Source of the DNA: an uncultured Clostridium sp.
GTDB taxonomy: Bacteria > Bacillota > Clostridia > Peptostreptococcales > Peptostreptococcaceae
DNA: 14,165 nt
Reading direction: 5' to 3'
NCBI GenBank assembly: GCA_900557165.1
Contig: USRS01000070.1
Span: 1-14,165, forward strand
In this document: positions 1,822-14,079 of the stretch, piece by piece
Layout: each line of letters begins with the position of its first letter
Numbering within the stretch: position 1 is the first letter of the stretch
Program-made: the position numbers and the translations under genes
The notes under the pieces: generated by a model
Databases searched by the model: none
What the model was told of the DNA's origin: nothing
What the model saw: the letters and a program-made list of their open reading frames with translations, nothing else

Positions 1822-1825
1822 TTTG

Positions 1826-1866
1826 AAAGAACCTGTGAATAAACTTTTTATAACAGGTTCTTTTTA
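1826..1866 (+). terminator. Rho-independent terminator after the dipeptidase gene
   Basis: An 11-bp perfect inverted repeat, AAAGAACCTGT at 1826-1836 and ACAGGTTCTTT at 1853-1863, begins five bases after the dipeptidase stop. The last pairs run into a T tract (1861-1865). The 16-base loop can form a further short ATAAA/TTTAT stem. This should end the upstream transcript and separate it from the repair operon. Confidence 0.85.
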
Positions 1867-1949: not shown

Positions 1950-1990
1950 TATAAATATATAAAAAATGAAACTTTAGAAAAGGTGATTAA

Positions 1991-3892
1991 ATGAAATATT
2001 TATTCAAAGAAGTGAATTTAAACAAGAAGAAAGAAAAGATAATTAATATATATGAAAATATAATAAAAAAAAATAACTATAGAAGCAAGAATATCCTTTT
2101 TCTTGTACCAAATAGTATAATTAAATTAAATTATATGAGAGATATAAATCTTCCTTTTAGTGAAGAGCTAAAAATAACTACATATAGTCACTTTGTTCAA
2201 AGTGAGTTAATAAAATATTGGCCCATAGTAGTTAAAAATTGTAATCAAATAAAAAAAGACAAAATAAGCCCTTCTTTTATTTCTCCAAGTTTAAGTGAAT
2301 ATATAATAAAATCTTATGTAAAAAAAATGAGAGAAGAAGAAAATTATTTTGAAGATATAGTGGGTACTGATAAAAGCATTTGCAGAAATATTATGGATAA
2401 TTTAAGTAAAGCTTGTTTTAATAATTTTGATATAAATAGTATAGGAGAAAAAATATACGATACTAAAAAAAATAGAAATGATTTAAATAGATACTCATAC
2501 AGTCAAATGCAAGAAATAATTGATTATTATGTTGAAACATTATTTTTGGAAGGTATAATTGATAATTCTTTATCCATATATTTATATAATAATTTTTTAT
2601 TAAATAATAAAGATTACAAAGAAAAATTGAAAAAAGAGTATAAATATTTAATAGTGGATAGCTTAGAAAATAGCAGTGTAAGTGAAGGTAATTTAATTGA
2701 TGAGTTAATGCAATCTGTGGAAGATGCTTATATTTTCTATGATAAAAGCAAGGATTATTCATCTTTTAAAAATGTGGATATAAAATATATTGAAGAAAAT
2801 ATATTAAAAAGACATTTCTCAGAACATAGCGAAGATAAATTTATATTTGATGAAATAAATATACAAACGCTTTATAAAGAAAAAAATAAAATTAATATTG
2901 ATGAAAATTCTCATTTATATGATGAAATGATTGAAGCCGTTGGAAATAAAATTGAAGAGTTAATAAGAAGTGGTAAAAACTTAAAAGATATAGTTATAAT
3001 TTCTCCAATAAATAACTCCATATTAGATTATAAAATATGTAATAAATTAAAAGAAAAAAATATAGAAATACAAAATACAAAAATGGATAGTAAGATAATA
3101 GATCATCCATATGCTAATGCTTTAGTTGTAGCTACTTGTATATTTTTAAATTTACAACATTTTATAAAAGAAGAAGAGTATATAAATTTTATTGAGGTAT
3201 TATTTGAAGTGAATAAAATAAGAGCTATAAAAATTTATAATACCCGTCATGAAAATGAAGAGTATAAAAATTTGATAGAATTTATAAGAAATAAAGAAAA
3301 AGAAAGTTTAAGAATTAGTGAGTTTTTACTTCAATTTTACATAGAAAAAATGCTAAATCTTAAAAATGGAAAGGAAAATGTTCAGTTTTGTAAAGAGATT
3401 ATAAAACAAGGCGATATTTTCAGTGAAATTTTAGAAGATTTAAATATAAATAAAAAAGAAAAGCATGAAATTTTTATAAAATGCTTGAAAGAAAACATAA
3501 ATGATTATTATATGTCTTCTGATATGGAAGATATGAAAAAATCAAATAAAATTATTATTGCCACGCCTTATACATATATAAATGCTAATATAAATAGAAA
3601 AATACAACTTTGGTTAGATATAGGTAGCAATGTATGGAATATGAAAATAGAAAAAGATATATCAAACCCATTAGTTCTTAGAAAATCTTTTAAAAAAAAA
3701 ATATATAGTGATGAAATGGAAGAAAATTATAAAAAATATTATTTATATAATTTAATTTATAATTTATTGATAAACAGTGAAGAGGTTTATGCTTTTAAAA
3801 GTGATTATAGTGTAAATGGATTTATGCAGGAAAGTATGATGTATACCCTTTTATTGAGACTTTTAGATAAAGGAGAGAAAGTTGATGAGTAA
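1991..3892 (+). CDS. AddB-like inactivated helicase scaffold lacking P-loop and nuclease domain
   Basis: This 633-residue protein has no obvious catalytic motif but follows the layout of an AddB helicase region. Its KNILFLVPN (33-41) matches the AddB motif around VILLVPE at nearly the same position. EYKYLIVDS (216-224) falls where AddB has its Walker B IYIDE. The segment at 519-551 (KIIIATPYTY onward) parallels the AddB stretch VLVSSIDRM followed by LIGTTDGIFP. Where AddB has its Walker A (residues 8-15), this protein has a lysine/asparagine-rich stretch with no GKT, and the Walker B glutamate is replaced by S224. It ends before any PD-(D/E)XK or cysteine motif. It is therefore read as a non-ATPase structural partner, probably of the helicase and nuclease encoded next. 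The start is supported by AGGTGAT at 1981-1987. It is the first gene of the operon and overlaps the next gene by 8 bp. The assignment rests on visual alignment, so remote homology is likely but unproven. Confidence 0.68.
   Translation: MKYLFKEVNLNKKKEKIINIYENIIKKNNYRSKNILFLVPNSIIKLNYMRDINLPFSEELKITTYSHFVQSELIKYWPIVVKNCNQIKKDKISPSFISPSLSEYIIKSYVKKMREEENYFEDIVGTDKSICRNIMDNLSKACFNNFDINSIGEKIYDTKKNRNDLNRYSYSQMQEIIDYYVETLFLEGIIDNSLSIYLYNNFLLNNKDYKEKLKKEYKYLIVDSLENSSVSEGNLIDELMQSVEDAYIFYDKSKDYSSFKNVDIKYIEENILKRHFSEHSEDKFIFDEINIQTLYKEKNKINIDENSHLYDEMIEAVGNKIEELIRSGKNLKDIVIISPINNSILDYKICNKLKEKNIEIQNTKMDSKIIDHPYANALVVATCIFLNLQHFIKEEEYINFIEVLFEVNKIRAIKIYNTRHENEEYKNLIEFIRNKEKESLRISEFLLQFYIEKMLNLKNGKENVQFCKEIIKQGDIFSEILEDLNINKKEKHEIFIKCLKENINDYYMSSDMEDMKKSNKIIIATPYTYINANINRKIQLWLDIGSNVWNMKIEKDISNPLVLRKSFKKKIYSDEMEENYKKYYLYNLIYNLLINSEEVYAFKSDYSVNGFMQESMMYTLLLRLLDKGEKVDE
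3871..3875 (+). promoter_or_regulatory. Ribosome binding site deciding the start of the UvrD-like helicase gene
   Basis: AGGAG sits inside the 3' end of the preceding gene, nine bases before ATG 3885 and six before an in-frame TTG at 3882. ATG is preferred as the common start; using TTG would add a single methionine. The placement implies translational coupling. Confidence 0.7.
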
Positions 3893-6080
3893 AATTAATT
3901 ATAGAGAAGACCAACTTCCAATTATAAATTATGAAGGTGGAAAAATGGCAGTTCCTGCAGTACCAGGAGCTGGTAAAACATTTATAGTTACTAATTTAGT
4001 AGCAAAACTTTTGCAAGAGAAAAAACAAGGAAAAGGGAAAATTCTTATATTAACTTATATGAATAGTGCGGTAAATAATTTTAAAGTTAGAATAAAGAAA
4101 ATTCTTGAAGAAAAAAACATAGAAGAAAAAACTTCTTATGAAGTAATGACTATTCACTCTTTAGCTGTAAAAATAATAAAAGAAAAGCCAGAAATAGTTA
4201 TGTTAAATGAGGATTTTAATATAGCAGATGATTTGCAAAAAACTATGATTTTAAATGAATGCATAAACAATTTTAAAATTAATGGTGGTGAAAAAGCATT
4301 TAGATTCTTTTTAAAAGAACAAAAAGACGTAGAGTGGGCTCAAAGACAACTAGATGCTTGGGAAAATGGGTTTTATGATTTAGTTCAAAATACTATAAGT
4401 GAGTTAAAATACAAGGGCATTAAACCACAAAAGTTAGAACAATATTTAAATGAAAATCGTAGGGGAATATTTAAAATAATTCTTCCCATATATAAACAGT
4501 ATGAAAAACAATTAAAATCAAATGGTTTATTAGATTATGATGATATGCTTATTTTGGCTTATAAAATTTTAAGTATGGATGAAGATTTAAAAAGGAAATA
4601 TCAAAATAAATATGAGTATGTGTTTGAGGATGAATGTCAGGATTCCAATGAAATTCAAGGAAAAATAATAGGGTTAATTTGTGAAGAACATAAAAATTTA
4701 GTAAGAGTTGGAGATATAAATCAGAGTATAACAGGTACATTTTCATCTTCAGATCCTAAGTTTTTTAAGGAATTTATAGAAGAAAGTGATTTTTGCTATA
4801 AGATGGACATGTCAAATAGAAGTTCAAAAGACATAATAAATCTTGCCAATGAATTAGTTAGATATGTTACACAAAATTTGCAAGAAGAATGTAGAGATGC
4901 TTTGGAAGAAATGAATATAAAAACAGTACCTAAAAATATGGGATACAAGGAAAATCCAGAGCCGGATAAGTATCAAATAAATTATAAGTATTATGAAACT
5001 TTTGATAAAGAAATAGAGCAAAGTGTAAAATTTGTAAGAAATATTCATAAAAAATATCCAGATAAAAGTATAGGTATATTAGTACCTTATAATGACCATA
5101 TTAACTTAGTTGCCAAAGAACTTATAAAAGAAGATTTAGAATTTGAAGAACTTGGTCCAAATTCTCTTAGAAAAAGAAGAGTAATAGATAATATTGCTTT
5201 AATTATAGATTTTATATTAAACTGTGACAACATAGATAAATTAATAGAAGTTTTAGACAAAGTATATATAAAAACTGATAATAAAGAAGGAAAAAAAGAT
5301 TTTCTTCAATTATTAAAAGAAAATAATTATACTGTAGAAAATTTACTATATGATAAAGATTGTTCAAAAAATATAATAATAGATATAAATAGTGATTTAT
5401 ATGAAAGTTTTTTATATGGCTTAGAAAGTTTAAAAAATATAATTGAATATCCATTAACAAGAGTAGATAAGTTGATTCTTTTCATAGGGGACACATTATT
5501 AATCGAAAAAGAAGAAAGAGCTATAGTTGACTATTTAGGATTTTATGTGAAGTATTTACAATCTGAAAACAACAACATAAACTTACAACAAATTTATAAC
5601 TTGTTAAGTGATAGGAAAAATAGGGTATTTAGTTATATTATTGAAATTGTTAGTGAAATAAATGGATATGAACCTTACCCAGGAAGTATAACTGTGTGTA
5701 ATTATCACAAATCAAAGGGACTAGAGTGGGATTGTGTATTTTTATTGGGAATGACAGAATTTAATTTCCCAGATAATATTTATCAAAAGTTCCAATGTGA
5801 CAAATGGTATCTTAAAGAAAAATATAAAAATCCTCAGGCAAATATAAAAGCAGAAATAGATTTAATGTTACAAGGTGAAGTAACTAAAAATTATCCAAAA
5901 GAAATAAAAGAAAACTTAATAAAAGAAAAAATAAGACTTTTATATGTTGGTATTACAAGGGCAAAAGAAATGTTGATTTTATCAGCTAGTGCAAAAAATT
6001 CGGCCCAAGATAAAAGAAATCAAAATCCATCTATGTATTTAAATATATTAAAAAATATAATCGATAATAAAGGAGAATGA
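3885..6080 (+). CDS. UvrD/AddA-like SF1 DNA helicase without a nuclease domain
   Basis: This 731-residue protein contains a complete set of SF1A helicase motifs, so it should be an active ATP-dependent 3'-5' DNA translocase. They are the Q-motif (Q10), Walker A AVPGAGKT (25-32), motif Ia LTYMNSAV (56-63), motif II DECQD (249-253), motif III GDINQSI (276-282), a diverged motif IV SNRSS (310-314), motif V NYHKSKGLEW (606-615) and motif VI LLYVGITRA (685-693). Two motifs differ from the UvrD consensus: DECQD instead of DEYQD, and TGTFSSSDP after motif III where YRFRGA is usual. It stops soon after motif VI, so it resembles AddA with the C-terminal nuclease removed. It overlaps the scaffold gene by 8 bp and ends 4 bp before the nuclease gene, which suggests a three-subunit complex. 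A free-standing PcrA/UvrD-like repair helicase is the alternative, but the context argues for a complex. Confidence 0.9.
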   Translation: MSKINYREDQLPIINYEGGKMAVPAVPGAGKTFIVTNLVAKLLQEKKQGKGKILILTYMNSAVNNFKVRIKKILEEKNIEEKTSYEVMTIHSLAVKIIKEKPEIVMLNEDFNIADDLQKTMILNECINNFKINGGEKAFRFFLKEQKDVEWAQRQLDAWENGFYDLVQNTISELKYKGIKPQKLEQYLNENRRGIFKIILPIYKQYEKQLKSNGLLDYDDMLILAYKILSMDEDLKRKYQNKYEYVFEDECQDSNEIQGKIIGLICEEHKNLVRVGDINQSITGTFSSSDPKFFKEFIEESDFCYKMDMSNRSSKDIINLANELVRYVTQNLQEECRDALEEMNIKTVPKNMGYKENPEPDKYQINYKYYETFDKEIEQSVKFVRNIHKKYPDKSIGILVPYNDHINLVAKELIKEDLEFEELGPNSLRKRRVIDNIALIIDFILNCDNIDKLIEVLDKVYIKTDNKEGKKDFLQLLKENNYTVENLLYDKDCSKNIIIDINSDLYESFLYGLESLKNIIEYPLTRVDKLILFIGDTLLIEKEERAIVDYLGFYVKYLQSENNNINLQQIYNLLSDRKNRVFSYIIEIVSEINGYEPYPGSITVCNYHKSKGLEWDCVFLLGMTEFNFPDNIYQKFQCDKWYLKEKYKNPQANIKAEIDLMLQGEVTKNYPKEIKENLIKEKIRLLYVGITRAKEMLILSASAKNSAQDKRNQNPSMYLNILKNIIDNKGE

Positions 6081-6084
6081 TTAA

Positions 6085-6843
6085 ATGAATGAAAAATTAA
6101 AATATTTTACATATAGCCAAAACTCATTAAATACTTATAAATCATGTCCTTTTAAATTTAAATATAAATATATAGATAATATAAATTGGAAATATGATGA
6201 TGTAGATAGTCGTGAATATTACGATAGTTTGAAATTAGGACGAGAATTCCATTTATTATGTGAAAGATATTTTTCTCAAATACCTTTGGGAAATTGTCAA
6301 AATAAAGAATTTAATAAATGGATAAATAAAATTAAAGATTTATTTCCCATAAAAGATGAAAATATATATTTACCTGAATATGATCTTAGATTAAATTTAA
6401 ATAATAAAAATTTAATAGCTAAAGTTGATTTAGTAAAGATAAAAAAAGATAGCATAAATTTATGGGATTGGAAAACAGAAAATAGGGAAATAACTTATAA
6501 AAATGCATTAAATAGAATGCAGACCATAGTGTATCTATTTTTAGCAGAGGAAATAATAAGAAAAAATTTTTATCCTACTTATGATATAGAAAATATAAGT
6601 ATGAACTATTATCAGCCAGGCTTAGAAAATAACATAATTACAATTAATTATAATAAAAAATTACATGAAGAAAATAAATTGAAAATACTAAATTTAATAA
6701 ATAATATTGAATCAACTGATTTTAATAATGAAAATAAAATAAATAAAAATTTAAACCACTGTAAATACTGTGAGTTTAATAAGCTTTGTAACAGTGAAGC
6801 TATAAATTATGAAATTTTGGAGGAAGACATTTATGGGTCTTAA
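6085..6843 (+). CDS. Stand-alone AddB/Cas4-type PD-(D/E)XK nuclease with predicted 4Fe-4S cluster
   Basis: This 252-residue protein corresponds to the nuclease module of AddB alone. It opens with YKSCPFKFKYKY (18-29), which matches YAGCPFSYF of the downstream AddB. The nuclease residues follow in order: H56 (GREFH), D115 (AKVD), D128-x-K130 (WDWKT) and Q146...Y150 (MQTIVYLF). C21 plus C226-x2-C229-x5-C235 reproduces the cysteine spacing that ligates a 4Fe-4S cluster in AddB and Cas4. It is therefore predicted to be a single-strand DNA exonuclease or endonuclease with an iron-sulfur staple. It has no helicase domain, so it presumably uses the helicase encoded just upstream. The start ATG has AAGGAG at 6070-6075. 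Its last 11 bases overlap addB, whose ribosome site lies inside it. No cas1, cas2 or repeat array is present, so an AddB-type role fits better than CRISPR adaptation. Confidence 0.87.
   Translation: MNEKLKYFTYSQNSLNTYKSCPFKFKYKYIDNINWKYDDVDSREYYDSLKLGREFHLLCERYFSQIPLGNCQNKEFNKWINKIKDLFPIKDENIYLPEYDLRLNLNNKNLIAKVDLVKIKKDSINLWDWKTENREITYKNALNRMQTIVYLFLAEEIIRKNFYPTYDIENISMNYYQPGLENNIITINYNKKLHEENKLKILNLINNIESTDFNNENKINKNLNHCKYCEFNKLCNSEAINYEILEEDIYGS
6819..6823 (+). promoter_or_regulatory. Ribosome binding site deciding the addB start
   Basis: GGAGG lies nine bases before ATG 6833. It supports that start over the in-frame ATG at 6809, which has no comparable site and would add eight residues ahead of the normal AddB beginning (MGLKFVLGRGG). 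The site is inside the 3' end of the nuclease gene, which links translation of the two. Confidence 0.8.
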
Positions 6844-9800
6844 ATTTGTTTTAGGTAGAGGTGGTATAGGAAAAACAACCTTTATGCTAAATGAAATAAA
6901 AAAAAGAGTACAAGATGATGAAACAAGTCCTGTAATTCTTTTAGTTCCAGAACAATACTCATTTGAAATGGAAAAAAATATGTCTAAACTTTTCCAAGGA
7001 AAAGAAAAAGATAAGTATCTAAGAAGTAGAGTACTTAGTTTTAAAACTATGAGTAGTATTGTTTTCTCAAAGGTGGGAGGACTTACTGATGTAAATATAA
7101 ATTCTAGTGGTAGAGCTATGATTGTTTATAAATCCATAGATAAAATAACAAAGGATTTAAATGTTTATGCAAGATCAGCAACACAATCAGGGTTTGTATC
7201 CTCCATAACAGATATGATATCGGAGTTAAAACAATATAATGTATCACCAGAAATATTGGAAAATATGTCAGGGGAAATAGAAAATGAAACATTAAGATAT
7301 AAATTAATGGATATTGCTAAAATATATACAGAATTTGAGAAAAATTTACATGAAAATTATGTGGATTCTCAAGATATGCTTACATCTTTAGCTGAAAAAC
7401 TAGAAAAATGTGATTACTTTAAAGGTGCATATATTTATATAGATGAATTTACAGGTTTTACACCTAATCAGTATGGAATTTTAAGAGTTTTATTAAAACA
7501 AGCAAAAGAAGTTTATGTATCTTTAACAATAGATTCTCTAACTCAATTTACTTATGCAAAAAATGATGCATTTTCAAGAACTAAGTATACTTTTGAAAAA
7601 TTATATAAAATAGCAGTAGAAGAAAACGTGAAAATACATACTAATATTAATTTAAACTCTGAAGAAGTAAAAAGGTTTAGGGGAAATGATGAGCTTAAAC
7701 ATTTGGAAGCTTTTTATCATGCTTATCCTTATAGAAAATATGAAAAAGAAACTAAACACATAGAAATTAAGGAATTTAATAATTTATATGATGAAGTGGA
7801 ACAAGTGGCAAAAGATATAGTTCATTTAGTTAGAAACAAAAAGGCTAGATATAAAGATATTACAGTGGCAACTAGAGATTTAAATAGATATGATTTTTTA
7901 GTTAAGTCCATATTTAAGGAATATGAAATTCCAAATTTTATAGATTCAAAAAGAGAAGCAAAAAGCAATCCTATTATAGTGCTAATTTTATCTGTATTGG
8001 AAATGAGACATAGGAGATATTCTTATGAAACTATGTTTAGATATTTAAAAAGTGGACTTATAGGAGTTGATGAAGAAGATATAAGTTTATTGGAAAACTA
8101 CGTCCTTCAAAACGGGATAACAGGTAAGAAGTGGTTTGAAGAAAGATGGGAGTATAAAGTAAATTCTAATTATTTAGCTGAAGAAAGTGAATTTGATTTA
8201 GAGCAAAAAGAAAGAATCAATGAAACTAAAAATAAAATATTAGAGCCAATTATAAAATTACAAGAAAAATTGGATAAGAAAAATAAAACTGTAAAAGAAA
8301 TCTGCACTTATGTTTATGAATTTTTAATTGATATTAATATAGAAGAAACATTGGAAAATTTAATTAATAATTTTACTGAAAAAGGTGACTTAGAAGTTGC
8401 AGATGAATATTCTCAAGTTTGGCAAATTGTTGTAGATATTTTAGATCAAATGGTCGAATTAATGGGGGATGAAAAAATTTCATTAGATAAATTTATGAAA
8501 GTTATAAGTTTAGGCTTTGATGAATATGAATTAGGTTTAGTACCACCTAGTATGGACCAAGTTTTAGTAAGTTCTATTGATAGAATGAAAAATTCCAATA
8601 CAAAATACCTGTATTTAATTGGAACTACAGATGGTATTTTCCCTCTAATTTCTAAAGAAAGTGGTTTATTAACAGATAAAGATAGAGAATCCCTTGGAGA
8701 AAAAGGATTGGAAGTAGATATAGATAGTAAAACTAAAACTTATGAAGAGCAGTTTTTAGTTTATAAAGCATTAACTTATACAAGTGAAAATCTTATAATA
8801 AGCTATCCCATATCAGACCATGAAGGAAAGACTTTAAGACCTTCTATAATTGTATCAAGGCTTAAAAAAATATTCCCTAATATAAGTATGACAAGTTATG
8901 TTTTAAAAGATTTAGATAATTCTACTCAAAAAGCTTTAGACAATATAACGGTAAAAGCTCCTACTTTTAATGAACTTATAAATGCTATTAAGGAATTTGA
9001 AATAAGAGATAATATAAATCCAGTTTATTTAGATTTATACAAATATTTCTTAAGTGATGAAGAATACAAGGGTAAATTGGAAAAGGTAGTAAGTGGGTTA
9101 AGCTATACAAATCAAGTTGAAAAAGTAGACAAAGAAAAAATTCAACAATTATATGAAAATAAAAATTTAAGTGTATCTAAATTAGAAAAATATGCAGGAT
9201 GTCCATTTTCTTATTTTATACAATATGGATTAAAAGTTCAGGAGAGAAAAGAATATTCATTTACAGCTCCAGATTTAGGTTCATTTGTTCATAATATACT
9301 TGATATCTTCTCAAAATCTTTAAATAAAGATAAATTAAATTGGCATGAAATAAATGAAGATTATATAAGAGTTAAAGTATCAATTATAGTTGATGAAATG
9401 GTGAGTAAAATTCCAGGATTTATATTAAATTCATCAGAACGATATAAATATTTAGCTTATAGGTTAAAGAAAATGTTAATATCAGCAATTAATATAATTT
9501 CCATGCAAATTAAACAAGGAAATTTTGAACCTGTAGATTATGAAGTAAGCTTTAGAAAAAATGGGAAATATCCACCTATAAAGCTTACTTTAAACAATGG
9601 AGAAGAAATAACACTAGTTGGTCAAATAGATAGAATTGATGAATTAGAAAAAGATGATAGCAAATATATTCGTATAGTAGATTACAAATCAGGAGATAAA
9701 TCTATTAACTTAACAGAAGTATATTATGGTTTACAGCTACAATTGTTAGTTTATTTAGATGCCATTATAGAAAGTGATAAATACAAAAAATCAACTTTAA

Positions 9801-10294
9801 AACCAGCAGCCATACTTTATAACAGAATTGATAATCCTATTGTAAAAAGCAATGAAGACCAAAAGGATTCAATTATAAATGAAGAAATATTGAAAAAACT
9901 TAGAATGAATGGTTTAGTTTTAAAAGATAAAGATATCATAGGTGAAATGGATTTATCATTAAAAGAAGGAGATAGAAAAACTTCTTTAGTAATACCTGCA
10001 AACTTTGATAAAAATGGAAATATAGGAAGATATACAAAAGGTGTTACAGATGAAGAATTTGATATATTAAGAGAATATGTAAAATATGAAGTAAAAGAAT
10101 TGTGTGAAAGAATGGTTGGAGGAGATATAAGTATTATTCCATGCAAAAATAAAAATGGAACATCTTGTGATTTCTGCTCTTATGCATCTATTTGTCAATT
10201 TGATGTTTCAATAAAAGGCAATACCTATACAGTTCTTAATGATAAAAGCGATGAAGAAGTTATTAAATTAATGGAGAAGGAGGTTAAAAAATAG
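6833..10294 (+). CDS. addB: ATP-dependent helicase/deoxyribonuclease subunit AddB
   Basis: This is a complete AddB of 1153 residues, close to the roughly 1,160 of the Bacillus subtilis protein. An intact Walker A GRGGIGKTT lies at 8-16, followed by LLVPEQYSFE (36 onward) and motif II IDEFTGF with D204-E205. The C-terminal nuclease domain has QID (D933), the catalytic DYK at 950-952 and the QLLVY segment ending at Y974. The iron-sulfur ligands are C790, C1112, C1115 and C1121, in the known AddB arrangement. AddB pairs with AddA to unwind and resect double-strand DNA ends. From family knowledge, its helicase-like part recognises Chi and its nuclease cuts the 5'-ended strand. It overlaps the upstream nuclease gene by 11 bp and shares one base with addA (TAGTG). 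No lesion is seen. The Chi sequence used here cannot be read from this window. Confidence 0.96.
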   Translation: MGLKFVLGRGGIGKTTFMLNEIKKRVQDDETSPVILLVPEQYSFEMEKNMSKLFQGKEKDKYLRSRVLSFKTMSSIVFSKVGGLTDVNINSSGRAMIVYKSIDKITKDLNVYARSATQSGFVSSITDMISELKQYNVSPEILENMSGEIENETLRYKLMDIAKIYTEFEKNLHENYVDSQDMLTSLAEKLEKCDYFKGAYIYIDEFTGFTPNQYGILRVLLKQAKEVYVSLTIDSLTQFTYAKNDAFSRTKYTFEKLYKIAVEENVKIHTNINLNSEEVKRFRGNDELKHLEAFYHAYPYRKYEKETKHIEIKEFNNLYDEVEQVAKDIVHLVRNKKARYKDITVATRDLNRYDFLVKSIFKEYEIPNFIDSKREAKSNPIIVLILSVLEMRHRRYSYETMFRYLKSGLIGVDEEDISLLENYVLQNGITGKKWFEERWEYKVNSNYLAEESEFDLEQKERINETKNKILEPIIKLQEKLDKKNKTVKEICTYVYEFLIDINIEETLENLINNFTEKGDLEVADEYSQVWQIVVDILDQMVELMGDEKISLDKFMKVISLGFDEYELGLVPPSMDQVLVSSIDRMKNSNTKYLYLIGTTDGIFPLISKESGLLTDKDRESLGEKGLEVDIDSKTKTYEEQFLVYKALTYTSENLIISYPISDHEGKTLRPSIIVSRLKKIFPNISMTSYVLKDLDNSTQKALDNITVKAPTFNELINAIKEFEIRDNINPVYLDLYKYFLSDEEYKGKLEKVVSGLSYTNQVEKVDKEKIQQLYENKNLSVSKLEKYAGCPFSYFIQYGLKVQERKEYSFTAPDLGSFVHNILDIFSKSLNKDKLNWHEINEDYIRVKVSIIVDEMVSKIPGFILNSSERYKYLAYRLKKMLISAINIISMQIKQGNFEPVDYEVSFRKNGKYPPIKLTLNNGEEITLVGQIDRIDELEKDDSKYIRIVDYKSGDKSINLTEVYYGLQLQLLVYLDAIIESDKYKKSTLKPAAILYNRIDNPIVKSNEDQKDSIINEEILKKLRMNGLVLKDKDIIGEMDLSLKEGDRKTSLVIPANFDKNGNIGRYTKGVTDEEFDILREYVKYEVKELCERMVGGDISIIPCKNKNGTSCDFCSYASICQFDVSIKGNTYTVLNDKSDEEVIKLMEKEVKK
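10277..10283 (+). promoter_or_regulatory. Ribosome binding site for the GTG start of addA
   Basis: A full AAGGAGG lies at the end of addB, ten bases before GTG 10294. It supports this rare start, which overlaps the addB stop by one base, and the resulting N-terminus (KWTKEQQEVID) is the usual AddA beginning. Confidence 0.75.
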
Positions 10295-13200
10295 TGGGCT
10301 CACCAAAATGGACGAAAGAACAACAAGAAGTAATAGACAGTAGAGATTGTAATTTATTAGTAGCAGCAGCTGCAGGTTCGGGAAAAACAGCCGTTTTAGT
10401 TGAAAGAATAATAAAGATAATTACAAATAAAGAAAAATTAGTAGATATAGATAGCTTGCTAGTAGTTACCTTCACCAACGCAGCAGCATCAGAAATGAGA
10501 GAAAGAATAGGAGATGCCATAGGTAAGGCCTTAGAAGAAAATCCAGAAGATACTCATTTACAAAATCAATTGGTACTTTTAAATAAGGCAAGTATAACAA
10601 CTATACATTCATTTTGTTTAGAAGTTATTAAATCAAATTTTCACAAGATAGATTTGGATCCTAACTTTAGAATAGGTGATGAAACAGAATGTACTATTTT
10701 AAAATTAGAAACTATAGAAGAAGTTTTTGAAGAATTTTATGAAGCAAAGGAAGATGATTTTTATAAATTAGTTGAAAGTTATAGTGAAAAAAGAGGAGAT
10801 TCCAACTTACAACATATGGTTTTAAGTATTTATTCCTTTGTTATGTCTTCACCTTATCCGAGAAAATGGTTAAAAGATAGTATAAATGATTTTAATATAG
10901 ATGATAATTTTGATTTTTCCACATCAAAATGGGCTCATATTATTTTAGATACTGTGAAAATTCAAATTAATGGTATTGTGAAAAACTTTAATAAAGCTTT
11001 GGAAATGGTAGAAGGCATAGAAGAGTTAGAAACTTTTACAGATAAATTAAAAATAGAATATAAAATGATAAAAAATCTTTTAGATAGTTGTGATAAAGGT
11101 TGGGAAGAATCTTATAGAGCAGCCCTATCTTTGGAATTTGAAAACTATGCAAAGGGAGTAAAAAGAATTCCCAAGGGGTCTGAAGAATACATAAAAGAAG
11201 CTAAAAATAAAGCTAAAAAAATAAGAGATGATGCTAAAAAATCTTTGGAATCTATACAAAATTCCACATTTAATAAAGATATTTCAGCATTAAATAAAGA
11301 AATAAAAATGTTATACCCAGTGGTTAATGCCCTTGGCAAAGTACTTATAAGATTTATGGACTTATATAGCAATAGAAAAAGGGAAAAAGGTATAATTGAC
11401 TTTAATGATATAGAACATTTTGCTTTAGATATATTGATTAAAAAAGATGAAAATGAAGATATTGTAAGAGATAAAGATGGCAAAGCTATAGGAAGTGATG
11501 TTGCCTTAGAATATAGGGAGAAATTTTATGAAATTTTTATAGACGAATATCAAGATTCCAACTTTGTCCAAGAAGTTTTACTTTCAACAATAGCTAAAGT
11601 TGAAACTCCAAATAGATTTATGGTTGGAGATGTTAAACAAAGTATTTATAGATTTAGACAAGCAAAACCTGAAATTTTCTTAGAAAAATATGCTACTTAT
11701 GGAACCGAAAAAGGTGAAGCAAATAGAAAAATAATGCTTTATAAAAACTTTAGAAGTAGGAAAGAAGTTATAGATAGTTGTAACTATATTTTTGAAAATA
11801 TAATGAGTAAAAATATAGGTGAAATTGAATATACAAAGGATGAATCATTAAATTTAGGTGCATCTTTCAAAGAAAATATTGAAAAAAATGTGATTGTAGG
11901 TGGTGCTACAGAAATTCATTTAATGGAAAAAGCACAAAAGGAAAATGAAGAAAGTCAAAATGATGATGAAATATCAGAAGAAGAGTTAGATAATATTCAA
12001 CTTGAAGCTCGTATGGTTGGTAAAATTATAAAAAATTTAATGTCAGAAGATGAAGAAGGTAATACATATAAAGTTTATGATAAAAAATTAGATGATTACA
12101 GAGTTGTTGATTTTAAAGATATAGTCATTTTACTTAGAGCTACATCTTCATGGGCACCAGTATTTGCTGATGAACTTATAAATATGGGAATACCAACATA
12201 TGCAGATACAGGGATGGGATATTTTGATACTATAGAAATTAAAACTATAATGTCATTTTTAAGGATAATAGATAATCCTATGCAGGATATTCCATTACTT
12301 GCTGTTTTAAAATCACCTATACTTCCATATACATCTTTCACACCAGAAGATTTTATAGATATAAGATTAGAAAATGAAAATACTAATCTTTTTGAATGTA
12401 TAAGAATTTTAAGTGAAAGTGAAGATGAAGAAAAGAAGGAAATAAAAGAAAAATGTCGAAGATTTCTAAGTGGATTAAAAGAATATAAGGAAAAATCTTT
12501 ATATATGAGTACGGATGAGTTTTTATGGCATTTATACATGAAAAGTGGATATTATGCTTATGTGGGAGCTTTACCAAGTGGAAGTCAAAGACAAGCTAAT
12601 TTAAAAATTTTATTTGAAAGAGCTAAGCAATTTGAAGAGACAAGTTTTAAAGGTATTTTTAACTTTATAAACTTTATAGATAAAATAAAAAAATCAAATT
12701 CTGATATGGGAAGTGCAAAAACTTTAGGAGAAAATGCCAATGTAGTAAGAATAATGTCTATACATAAAAGTAAAGGATTGGAATTCCCTATAGTATTTTG
12801 CTCTGCCATGAGTAAAAACTTCAATACAATGGACTTTAAAAAAGATATGTTATATCACTATGAATTGGGGTTTGGGCCACAACTTGTAGATATAGATAGA
12901 CGTATATCTTATCCAAGTATTGCAAAAGAAGCTTTAAAATACAAAATGAATTTGGAAAATTTATCAGAAGAGATGAGAATTCTTTATGTTGCCTTAACAA
13001 GAGCTAAGGAAAAACTTATTTTAACGGGTGCTGTAAAAGATATTCCAGCAACTTTAAATAAGTGGGGTAAAAATTTAGATGGAGATAGTCCCATGTCTCA
13101 ATATGATGTATTAAAAGCAAAAAATTATTTAGATTGGATTATGCCATCAGTATTAAAACATCAGGATTTTAAAGAAGTAAGAAAAGATTATGATATGAAT

Positions 13201-14079
13201 GTTTTATCTGAATATACTCATGATTCTAAGTGGTCATTTAATACTTGGGGAAAAGATGATGTAATAGTCCAAGAGAAGGAAGAAGAAAGAAATATAGAAA
13301 CTCTTCTAAAAGAAATGGAAGAAAGTACTTATGAAAGTGATTATAGCGAAGAAATAAAGGAAACTTTAAATTATGTTTATCCTTACAAAGAAAGTGTAAA
13401 AGTATCTGCTAGTATATCAGTATCAGAAATTAAAAAAATGCAAAGTACCCATGAAGAAGATTACTCCAAACCTTTGTATGAAGAAAAATTGACTTTAAAA
13501 AGACCTTTATTTATTCAAGAAGGTGAAGCTAAAAATAAAATCAGTCCACAGGAGAGGGGTACAATAGTCCATTTAGTTATGGAAGTACTTGATTTAAATA
13601 GAATAAATACAATAGATGAAATAAAGGAACAAATTAAAGATTTAATAAAAAGGGAAATAATAAGTGAAAAGCAATCTTTAGTTATTAATCCTTTTAAAAT
13701 ATATAAATTTTTTAAATCACAAGTTGGTAAAAGGGCATTATCTTCTCATTTTATAAAAAGAGAGCAAAGCATATATTCTCAGATAAAAATGAATGATATT
13801 TATTTAAACAATGAAGATATTCAAAATAATAGGGCAATATATGAAGAAGAAAGCATGATGCTTAGGGGTATAATAGATTTATACTTTGAAGAAGATGATG
13901 AATTAGTAATAGTTGATTACAAAACAGATTATATAACAGATGAAAATAAACAAGATGTTATAAATAGATATAGAAAACAGTTAGATTTATATGCTGATGC
14001 ACTTACTAAATTAAGTGGAAAGAAAGTAAAAGAAAAATATTTATATCTATTTAATATAGATAAAGAAGTTAAATTATAA
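10294..14079 (+). CDS. addA: ATP-dependent helicase/nuclease subunit AddA
   Basis: This complete 1261-residue AddA joins a UvrD-like SF1 helicase to a RecB-type nuclease. The helicase motifs are the Q-motif KEQQ (8-11), Walker A AAAGSGKT (25-32), motif Ia VTFTNAAASEM, motif II DEYQD (417-421), motif III GDVKQSIYRF (from 445), motif IV NFRSRKE, motif V HKSKGLEF (from 824) and motif VI RILYVALTRA (895-904). The nuclease domain has H1093 (RGTIVH), GIID (D1195), DYKTD with D1208 and K1210, and Q1229...Y1233. AddA is the translocating motor of the AddAB complex, and its nuclease trims the 3'-ended strand until Chi. An acidic stretch around residues 550-566 lies between helicase subdomains and is probably a loop. 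Unlike AddB, it has no C-terminal cysteine cluster, as expected. It starts with GTG, immediately coupled to addB, and ends 17 bp before sbcD. Confidence 0.97.
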   Translation: MGSPKWTKEQQEVIDSRDCNLLVAAAAGSGKTAVLVERIIKIITNKEKLVDIDSLLVVTFTNAAASEMRERIGDAIGKALEENPEDTHLQNQLVLLNKASITTIHSFCLEVIKSNFHKIDLDPNFRIGDETECTILKLETIEEVFEEFYEAKEDDFYKLVESYSEKRGDSNLQHMVLSIYSFVMSSPYPRKWLKDSINDFNIDDNFDFSTSKWAHIILDTVKIQINGIVKNFNKALEMVEGIEELETFTDKLKIEYKMIKNLLDSCDKGWEESYRAALSLEFENYAKGVKRIPKGSEEYIKEAKNKAKKIRDDAKKSLESIQNSTFNKDISALNKEIKMLYPVVNALGKVLIRFMDLYSNRKREKGIIDFNDIEHFALDILIKKDENEDIVRDKDGKAIGSDVALEYREKFYEIFIDEYQDSNFVQEVLLSTIAKVETPNRFMVGDVKQSIYRFRQAKPEIFLEKYATYGTEKGEANRKIMLYKNFRSRKEVIDSCNYIFENIMSKNIGEIEYTKDESLNLGASFKENIEKNVIVGGATEIHLMEKAQKENEESQNDDEISEEELDNIQLEARMVGKIIKNLMSEDEEGNTYKVYDKKLDDYRVVDFKDIVILLRATSSWAPVFADELINMGIPTYADTGMGYFDTIEIKTIMSFLRIIDNPMQDIPLLAVLKSPILPYTSFTPEDFIDIRLENENTNLFECIRILSESEDEEKKEIKEKCRRFLSGLKEYKEKSLYMSTDEFLWHLYMKSGYYAYVGALPSGSQRQANLKILFERAKQFEETSFKGIFNFINFIDKIKKSNSDMGSAKTLGENANVVRIMSIHKSKGLEFPIVFCSAMSKNFNTMDFKKDMLYHYELGFGPQLVDIDRRISYPSIAKEALKYKMNLENLSEEMRILYVALTRAKEKLILTGAVKDIPATLNKWGKNLDGDSPMSQYDVLKAKNYLDWIMPSVLKHQDFKEVRKDYDMNVLSEYTHDSKWSFNTWGKDDVIVQEKEEERNIETLLKEMEESTYESDYSEEIKETLNYVYPYKESVKVSASISVSEIKKMQSTHEEDYSKPLYEEKLTLKRPLFIQEGEAKNKISPQERGTIVHLVMEVLDLNRINTIDEIKEQIKDLIKREIISEKQSLVINPFKIYKFFKSQVGKRALSSHFIKREQSIYSQIKMNDIYLNNEDIQNNRAIYEEESMMLRGIIDLYFEEDDELVIVDYKTDYITDENKQDVINRYRKQLDLYADALTKLSGKKVKEKYLYLFNIDKEVKL

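Follow-up and report, generated by a model that had tools for sequence, protein, structure and literature searches.

A three-gene module upstream of addBA that may encode a split helicase-nuclease for DNA-end resection

A 14,165-nucleotide stretch of DNA from an uncultured Clostridium sp. (contig USRS01000070.1; this whole stretch is called the window) carries, between positions 1991 and 6843 and directly upstream of addB and addA, three genes that we call O1, O2 and O3 (Table 1). An earlier note on this DNA had placed three coupled genes here, and its coordinates and gene description proved right; all three lie on the same strand. Judged from sequence, the three are real genes and not chance frames, because 707 proteins match O1 at E <= 0.001 and the gene order is kept in relatives. 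The 120 of the 707 that were listed are near-copies, the near-identical ones being named Terrisporobacter, the genus to which the window is therefore assigned. We think it fairly probable that the trio is a split DNA-end-resection helicase-nuclease, which would work like AddAB or AdnAB without being a member of either group.

Table 1. Features of the window (positions in the 14,165-nucleotide stretch; ORF, open reading frame; SF1A, superfamily 1A; Fe-S, iron-sulphur).
Feature	Position	Strand	Basis
O1, pseudo-helicase subunit, 633 aa	1991..3892	+	ORF listing, domain searches, structure model
O2, intact UvrD-type SF1A helicase, motor, 731 aa from ATG 3885 or 732 aa from TTG 3882	3885..6080	+	ORF listing, domain searches, motifs
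O3, stand-alone PD-(D/E)XK nuclease, probable Fe-S site, 252 aa	6085..6843	+	ORF listing, domain search, structure model
addB, canonical neighbour	6833..10294	+	ORF listing (listed from ATG 6809), better start ATG 6833; domain searches
addA, canonical neighbour	10294..14079	+	ORF listing, domain searches
Terminator-like hairpin with T tract, between dipeptidase gene and O1	1825..1864	+	folding, -16.1 kcal/mol, z -5.3
Probable ribosome binding site of O1, AAAAGGTGA	1978..1986	+	by eye

O2 is listed from TTG 3882, and the likelier start is ATG 3885, which lies behind AAGGAG and gives an overlap of 8 bp with O1. O2 and O3 are 4 bp apart; for addB, a start at ATG 6833, behind GGAGGA, would put its first 11 bp inside O3. 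The junctions look translationally coupled and have a Shine-Dalgarno-like sequence within the preceding gene. The trio probably begins a transcription unit of its own, since the terminator-like hairpin separates O1 from the dipeptidase gene; a consensus terminator scan with a short-loop rule listed no terminator between 1700 and 7000, the hairpin at about 1825-1864 included. The two genes that follow are canonical addB and addA, AddB scoring 1263 bits with TIGR02773 and AddA 1265 bits with TIGR02785 (NCBIfam).

The trio is conserved as a unit; a lack of such conservation in relatives, which by the earlier note would have refuted its reading, was not found. Of 84 loci scanned, 82 have the order O1-O2-O3, and contig ends interrupt the remaining two; the loci were picked by O1 or O3 matches and include near-duplicates, and the counts given here are of loci, not of independent events. 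One scan found O1 in 21 genome loci, all from Peptostreptococcaceae or labelled close kin, Clostridium difficile included; O2, O3, AddB and AddA follow there in unchanged order, to the extent that the contig covers them. In three records of C. difficile (L007, L011, L019) the trio lies directly upstream of addB. One might still take the three genes for mere neighbours, with O2 an ordinary UvrD paralogue and O3 a Cas4-like nuclease, each having a task of its own, and O2 and O3 are singly members of common superfamilies. However, the order is the same in three contexts and two phyla, and O1 is still present where its identity has fallen to about 23%, which makes this explanation hardly credible.

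Among 393 genomes of the order, O1 matches in 62, or 61 once G095 (L072) is counted out as an AddA-like ORF without the trio. The O3 profile (E <= 1e-15) finds 72, namely all 61 O1-bearing genomes and 11 more. Nine of the 11 (G004, G016, G028, G039, G047, G071, G163, G166, G220) have O1 and O2 upstream and AddB downstream, their O1 being very divergent (49-111 bits), and in the remaining two (G190, G255) O3 abuts AddB. Read from match coordinates, the distance between O3 and AddB is at most about 120 bp in 57 of the 72 genomes; in 13 O3 stands apart or AddB is missing, and G225 and G251 are unassignable. In a sample of the class, O1 passes E 0.001 in 136 of 391 genomes and falls below 1e-100 in 13, ten of which are additional to the known ones; relatives of one of the ten are Acetivibrio clariflavus, A. 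thermocellus and Clostridium thermosuccinogenes. The weak matches (mostly 1e-4 to 1e-8, mostly to frames of 500-1100 aa) were set aside as UvrD/PcrA cross-matches because L145 and L146, with O1 E-values of 1e-11 to 1e-12, proved to be PcrA without the trio. G016, G028 and G047, at 1e-13 to 1e-18, are real divergent trios, and trios may be undercounted among the weak matches. In a sample of the phylum, O3 falls below 1e-30 in 27 of 373 genomes, one of them the known G001. All 25 inspected of the 26 new ones have O1-O2-O3, O1 being in two frames in L188; G1038, split across contig ends, was left out of the set of loci.

What lies downstream of the trio on the same strand varies: RecJ in 29, AddB in 35 and neither in 18 of the 82 loci, some of the 18 ending at a contig edge. 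RecJ, the usual partner in other genomes, is not visible from the window. In 28 of the 29 loci no more than about 50 bp separate its start from O3, and in L180 about 675 bp do. Each of the four genomes tested encodes another RecJ elsewhere, the one in the operon being its second, and two genomes with a trio but no operon RecJ have one RecJ each. No other neighbour besides the trio and RecJ occurs in more than six of the 38 loci compared; of the two neighbour groups that reach six loci, the example looked at is an ABC transporter in one and a chemotaxis receptor in the other. In L053 a 572-aa RecJ gene (11293-13008) lies divergently beside O1, the trio there having no RecJ downstream. An O3-AddB fusion suspected from frame length in L068 was rejected, as a stop codon separates the two.

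The motor and nuclease residues are intact throughout. O2 carries the superfamily 1 (SF1) motifs and ends 39 residues past the motif VI Arg with no nuclease domain, in keeping with the earlier description of an intact helicase stopping soon after motif VI. Its Walker A Lys, motif II Asp-Glu, motif III Gln and motif IV and VI Arg are present in 80 of 80 sequences (the 82 trio loci less two with a broken or partial O1). It scores 125 bits with the AddA model TIGR02785, whose cut-off is 707.65, and so is not an AddA with C-terminal nuclease; in profile comparison it is nearer to PcrA (2e-58) than to AddA (5e-43). With recD it scores 21.3 bits (cut-off 310), and O1 and O3 have no recD match. O3 is a PDDEXK_1 protein (4.7e-22, Pfam) with four cysteines (C21, C226, C229, C235) in a Cys...CX2CX5C pattern, from which an Fe-S cluster is probable. 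His56, Glu98, Asp115, Asp128, Lys130, Gln146 and Tyr150 are conserved in 80 of 80 sequences and the four cysteines in 71. Its model (predicted local distance difference test, pLDDT, 86.0) has RecE, AdnA and ACE1/Cas4 (3e-6) as top Foldseek matches by E-value; by Z, AdnA comes first (17.2), followed by AddB and ACE1/Cas4 (14.6). The earlier note had called O3 an AddB-type Fe-S nuclease; by Z the model is nearer to AdnA than to AddB.

O1 is harder to recognise. The window protein has no NCBIfam or Pfam match below E 0.1, no AddB match among them (the TIGR02773 cut-off is not reached), and no PDB-sequence match up to E 10. It lacks the P-loop, motif II Glu, motif III Gln, motif IV Arg and the basic residue of motif VI. 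Its AlphaFold model (pLDDT 88.4, predicted template modelling score 0.86) is nevertheless a complete SF1A helicase fold, and the unrelated fold that the earlier note had allowed for was not found. Foldseek ranks AddB chains in its four top places by E-value (1.1e-15), with UvrD and PcrA after them; by Z, Rep, UvrD and PcrA lead (26), ahead of AdnB (23), RecB (20), AddA (19) and AddB (18-19). Absence from a fold match list was never used to exclude a family. The UvrD-helicase family is matched at E <= 0.1 by 13 of 25 diverse O1 proteins, the best value being 9.3e-12, and ADDB_N gave no match with any of the 25 at E 0.1. In profile comparisons with larger alignments, O1 proteins that bear a P-loop align nearly end to end with PcrA (1.2e-14 over 566 columns; the PcrA set is small, with five rows, three of them distinct) and with O2 (3.9e-14 over 593 columns), and over 224 columns with AddB (6.9e-6). 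The addBA-linked O1 set gives weaker values in the same ranking (PcrA 1.2e-6, O2 2e-6, AddB 3.8e-4). A second series of values for the addBA-linked set, to which the O1 of the window belongs, is also weaker in every comparison (PcrA 2e-6, O2 9.9e-5, AddB 0.0015). The candidate of O1 as a diverged AddB was dropped, the first sets giving a weak match (E 0.0023, probability 12.7) and the larger sets one weaker than that of O1 with PcrA.

By fold and by sequence, O1 and O2 belong to SF1A (UvrD/PcrA). Because their profiles align with PcrA and with each other, they look like two UvrD-family copies, one of them decayed, as in AddAB and AdnAB. The residue survey upholds the composition proposed earlier, one motor, one pseudo-helicase and one nuclease. 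The equation of O1 plus O3 with one AddB, and of O2 with an AddA, fares less well: AddB does top the Foldseek list of O1, but O1 is not specifically AddB nor O2 specifically AddA, the profiles favouring PcrA for both.

The ATP site of O1 was not always lost. Walker A is present in 46 of the 47 loci with RecJ or no partner, and in the sole exception, L188, it stands in a separate frame. It is found in none of the 33 addBA-linked loci with a visible O1 N-terminus (35 less L021 and L071). The absence of a P-loop, which the earlier note had reported, is therefore true of the O1 of the window and is a derived state of the addBA-linked clade; as a trait of the family it was rejected. Within the P-loop group the motif II Glu is replaced by Asp or Asn in 45 of 46 sequences, while the motif IV Arg is retained in 43 and the basic motif VI residue in 45. 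The 33 addBA-linked sequences have no motif IV Arg and, at the motif VI position, Lys in five and no Arg among the letters listed; in these motif counts the nine most divergent sequences align poorly. In nine addBA-linked loci (L142-L144, L192-L197) O1 is hardly recognisable. The O1 frame is broken in L018 (821-2717, Faecalimicrobium dakarense) and L188 (3702-5949, G1102), where sequencing error or decay is possible.

A tree of O2 (72 trio rows and five PcrA rows, quick method) places all addBA-linked trios in one clade (Shimodaira-Hasegawa-like approximate likelihood ratio test, SH-aLRT, 100), nested among RecJ-linked and lone trios; long branches and uneven composition were flagged, which makes the deep branches unsure. 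The P-loop of O1 needs one change on this tree, on the branch of the addBA-linked clade. The P-loop, the motif pattern and its single loss suggest that the ancestral O1 probably bound ATP and hardly hydrolysed it, nucleotide binding being given up once the trio had come under addBA. The same clade and the same branch can be read otherwise: in the window's clade the trio could serve AddAB as an accessory, with all five products at work together, and O1 would have dropped nucleotide binding on coming under addBA, so that the trio tunes AddAB and does not resect by itself. The loss of the motif IV Arg in this clade and the overlapping genes fit such a role. However, the motor motifs and the catalytic residues of the nuclease are invariant in the clade, so that its own catalysis seems to be kept, and the SOS response that C. 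difficile still mounts when addAB is gone suggests an AddAB-independent activity (PMC6344619). An accessory role is thus improbable in our view.

We searched for AddB in 24 genomes with the trio away from addBA, a set that includes G700 (an O1 fragment) and G566 (a trio cut by a contig end). AddB is above cut-off in 11, two have another AddAB-like pair (G476, G534), and 11 have none, meaning weak cross-matches at most. The last 11 are six Tepidibacter-type genomes (G193 by similarity), G082, G088, G659, G708 and G576. In the eight of them searched for AddA none is above cut-off, the best matches being of about 100 bits to PcrA-sized frames. Six of the 11 (G241, G129, G136, G202, G082, G576) have no PF12705 protein other than O3, in a search whose control was positive in 12 of 14 genomes, including Escherichia coli, Bacillus subtilis and Corynebacterium glutamicum. 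In G241, G235, G659 and G082 the trio lies on contigs that hold nearly the whole genome, and the AddB absences fall at four places on the O2 tree. Across the order, with lack of AddB defined by our own threshold as no match better than 1e-15, 15 of the 393 genomes lack it: eight with the trio away from addBA, G251 (a metagenome-assembled genome whose contig ends inside O3) and six without the trio, all of 1.2-2.1 Mb and of completeness not given. AddB is thus lacking in 8 of 13 genomes with the trio away from addBA vs 6 of 321 without the trio (Fisher p 1e-9, kinship ignored). The trio is then, as proposed earlier, distinct from the AddAB encoded beside it, since it can occur in genomes without AddAB. 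As a separate observation, proteins with AAA_24 and PDDEXK_1 domains are encoded at L198 (1356-3113) and L199 (1298-2899), in two AddAB-less genomes.

The end-processing enzyme of Firmicutes is generally held to be AddAB or, where that is replaced, RecBCD; a 2005 survey, in the part available, describes AddAB as almost ubiquitous there, with RecBCD instead in the one exception named (PMC1193525). Several lineages nevertheless keep the trio with neither AddB nor a PF12705 protein of AddA or RecB size. For some species no better candidate than the trio is left for the machinery that readies broken DNA ends for repair, and the trio may thus be a bacterial break-repair enzyme that has not been recognised.

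From the computed composition and order of the trio, its intact motor and nuclease residues, the decayed ATP site and fold of O1, the downstream partners and the presence without AddAB, we infer a physical complex, a strand polarity, an Fe-S cluster and a role in resection. O1, O2 and O3 would be subunits of one DNA-end-processing helicase-nuclease, in which O2, as a 3'-5' motor, would unwind DNA from the break. O1, a hydrolysis-dead SF1A copy, would bind the motor and a single strand as scaffold or strand guide and so play the part of the inactivated helicase domains of AddB and RecC, which have been proposed as single-strand scanners for Chi (PMC4824097). By analogy with these, it would guide or scan the strand behind O2 and place it at O3, a nuclease of the AdnA/AddB/Cas4 Fe-S type, which would cut one emerging strand. 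Where a dedicated RecJ is part of the operon, as it most often is outside the window's clade, it would add a 5'-3' exonuclease, which fits resection of the 5' strand. The product would be a 3' overhang for RecA. The P-loop, kept and then lost, offers a natural series for asking what a dead helicase subunit does.

Several observations weigh against resection by the trio. All four cysteines are missing in 9 of the 80 O3 sequences, presumably those of the group L142-L144 and L192-L197. Of the 24 genomes with the trio away from addBA, 11 have an AddB of Gram-positive type and two the AddAB-like pair, and the genomes of the window's clade retain AddAB. Among the AddB-less genomes, a 204-aa frame in each of G129 and G136 weakly matches the nuclease region of AddA, and five genomes have further PF12705 proteins or pieces: a 169-aa piece each in G659 and G708, a weak 211-aa frame in G193, and AAA_24-PDDEXK_1 proteins in G235 and G088, the latter with a 389-aa frame as well. 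Loss of addAB in C. difficile raises the sensitivity to ultraviolet light and metronidazole about 1000-fold (PMC6344619), so that the adjoining trio is no replacement for AddAB in survival. The literature searched held no biochemical or genetic data on O1, O2 or O3, and among the matches listed from the open-access literature there was no paper on the trio; nothing of use came from a C. difficile essential-gene study (PMC12548448). Spread is patchy (26 of 372 other genomes of the phylum), and plasmid pSR56 of Salinibacter ruber M8 (Rhodothermota; L203, 8950-16830) has the complete O1-O2-O3-recJ operon, preceded by an XRE regulator gene and a small gene of hypothetical product; both facts fit an accessory or defence system equally well.

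Defence is indeed the main rival of the resection reading. The trio and RecJ would then be a mobile system directed at incoming phage or plasmid DNA, which it would unwind and degrade, and in Peptostreptococcaceae it would have become fixed beside addBA. Besides the patchy spread and the plasmid copy, it is favoured by the link of UvrD-Cas4-like fusions with defence (PMC5704561) and by the limitation of a plasmid in Synechococcus by a Cas4-like nuclease, UvrD and RecJ (PMC10653904), each as far as the accessible text goes. However, O1 has no PADLOC match, and the GajB matches of O2 are common to AddA; RecJ is the only recurrent neighbour at the frequency given above, in a comparison that did not scan neighbours as a whole for defence genes. 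Two O1 queries found no phage match, so that phage carriage is not supported. One clade remains beside the housekeeping addBA, and in several genomes O3 is the sole PF12705 nuclease. We therefore consider defence unlikely. A lone O1-like gene on plasmid pILYOP01 of Ilyobacter polytropus (L202, 7992-9965) has no adjacent O2 or O3 in the listed, incomplete annotation.

One published finding favours the resection reading. Without addAB, C. difficile grows near-normally and retains SOS filamentation, from which the authors infer another exonuclease and suggest RecJ, according to the part of the report available (PMC6344619). The trio is a candidate for this AddAB-independent SOS-inducing activity, and a concrete, deletable one. 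More tentatively, and perhaps wrongly, the trio could be a further class of bacterial enzyme for processing break ends beside RecBCD, AddAB and AdnAB, split into pseudo-helicase, helicase and Fe-S nuclease. It would ancestrally have had its own RecJ and be able to move as a four-gene module between phyla; it would stand in for AddAB in Tepidibacter and further lineages, and account for the SOS inducibility that C. difficile retains when addAB is deleted.

The rest of the neighbourhood can be described briefly. Upstream of the trio the window has a gene for a class A beta-lactamase-like protein (18-788; PF13354; under every NCBIfam cut-off) and an M19 dipeptidase gene (850-1821). Both genes, or the dipeptidase gene alone, are also near the trio in L001, L002, L013, L014, L016 and L020. 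In L013, L016, L020 and L021 the AddA matches come in two pieces a few hundred bases apart, suggesting a long insertion in the AddA of Intestinibacter-type genomes.

How the trio relates to known systems can be put as follows. Like AddAB (RexAB), it has one active SF1A motor, one inactivated SF1 helicase subunit (O1, by its fold and decayed motifs) and a PD-(D/E)XK nuclease with the Cys...CX2CX5C pattern (O3). Unlike AddAB, it has its scaffold and nuclease in separate genes, a motor without nuclease domain and one nuclease rather than two; O1 matches neither ADDB_N nor the AddB models, and the trio is encoded beside AddAB or in its absence. In AdnAB of actinobacteria, AdnA and AdnB are each a helicase fused to a nuclease. 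The trio shares with it a paralogous pair of UvrD-type helicases and a nuclease whose model is nearest to that of AdnA, but its helicases and nuclease are split into genes, with one nuclease and no fusion subunits. RecBCD combines a RecC-like dead helicase, an active helicase and one active nuclease, as the trio does; the trio operon, however, has no second motor of RecD type, and its nuclease is not fused to the motor. In RecQ/RecJ end resection a helicase is teamed with RecJ, whereas the trio has a motor of UvrD type and a nuclease of its own, encoded in one operon with a second, dedicated RecJ.

The remaining two comparisons are with systems linked to defence. In Gabija, GajB is a UvrD-type helicase and scores on O2, but at E 0.01 no GajA match was found for O1 (0 families) or O3 (six families, all Cas4-like or DruK), nor for O2 among the best 25 of its 42 matches. 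The UvrD-Cas4-like (pfam12705) fusions likewise join a UvrD motor to a Cas4-like nuclease. They are single polypeptides in restriction or defence loci, whereas the trio consists of separate ORFs, and the part of the source available mentions no pseudo-helicase (PMC5704561).

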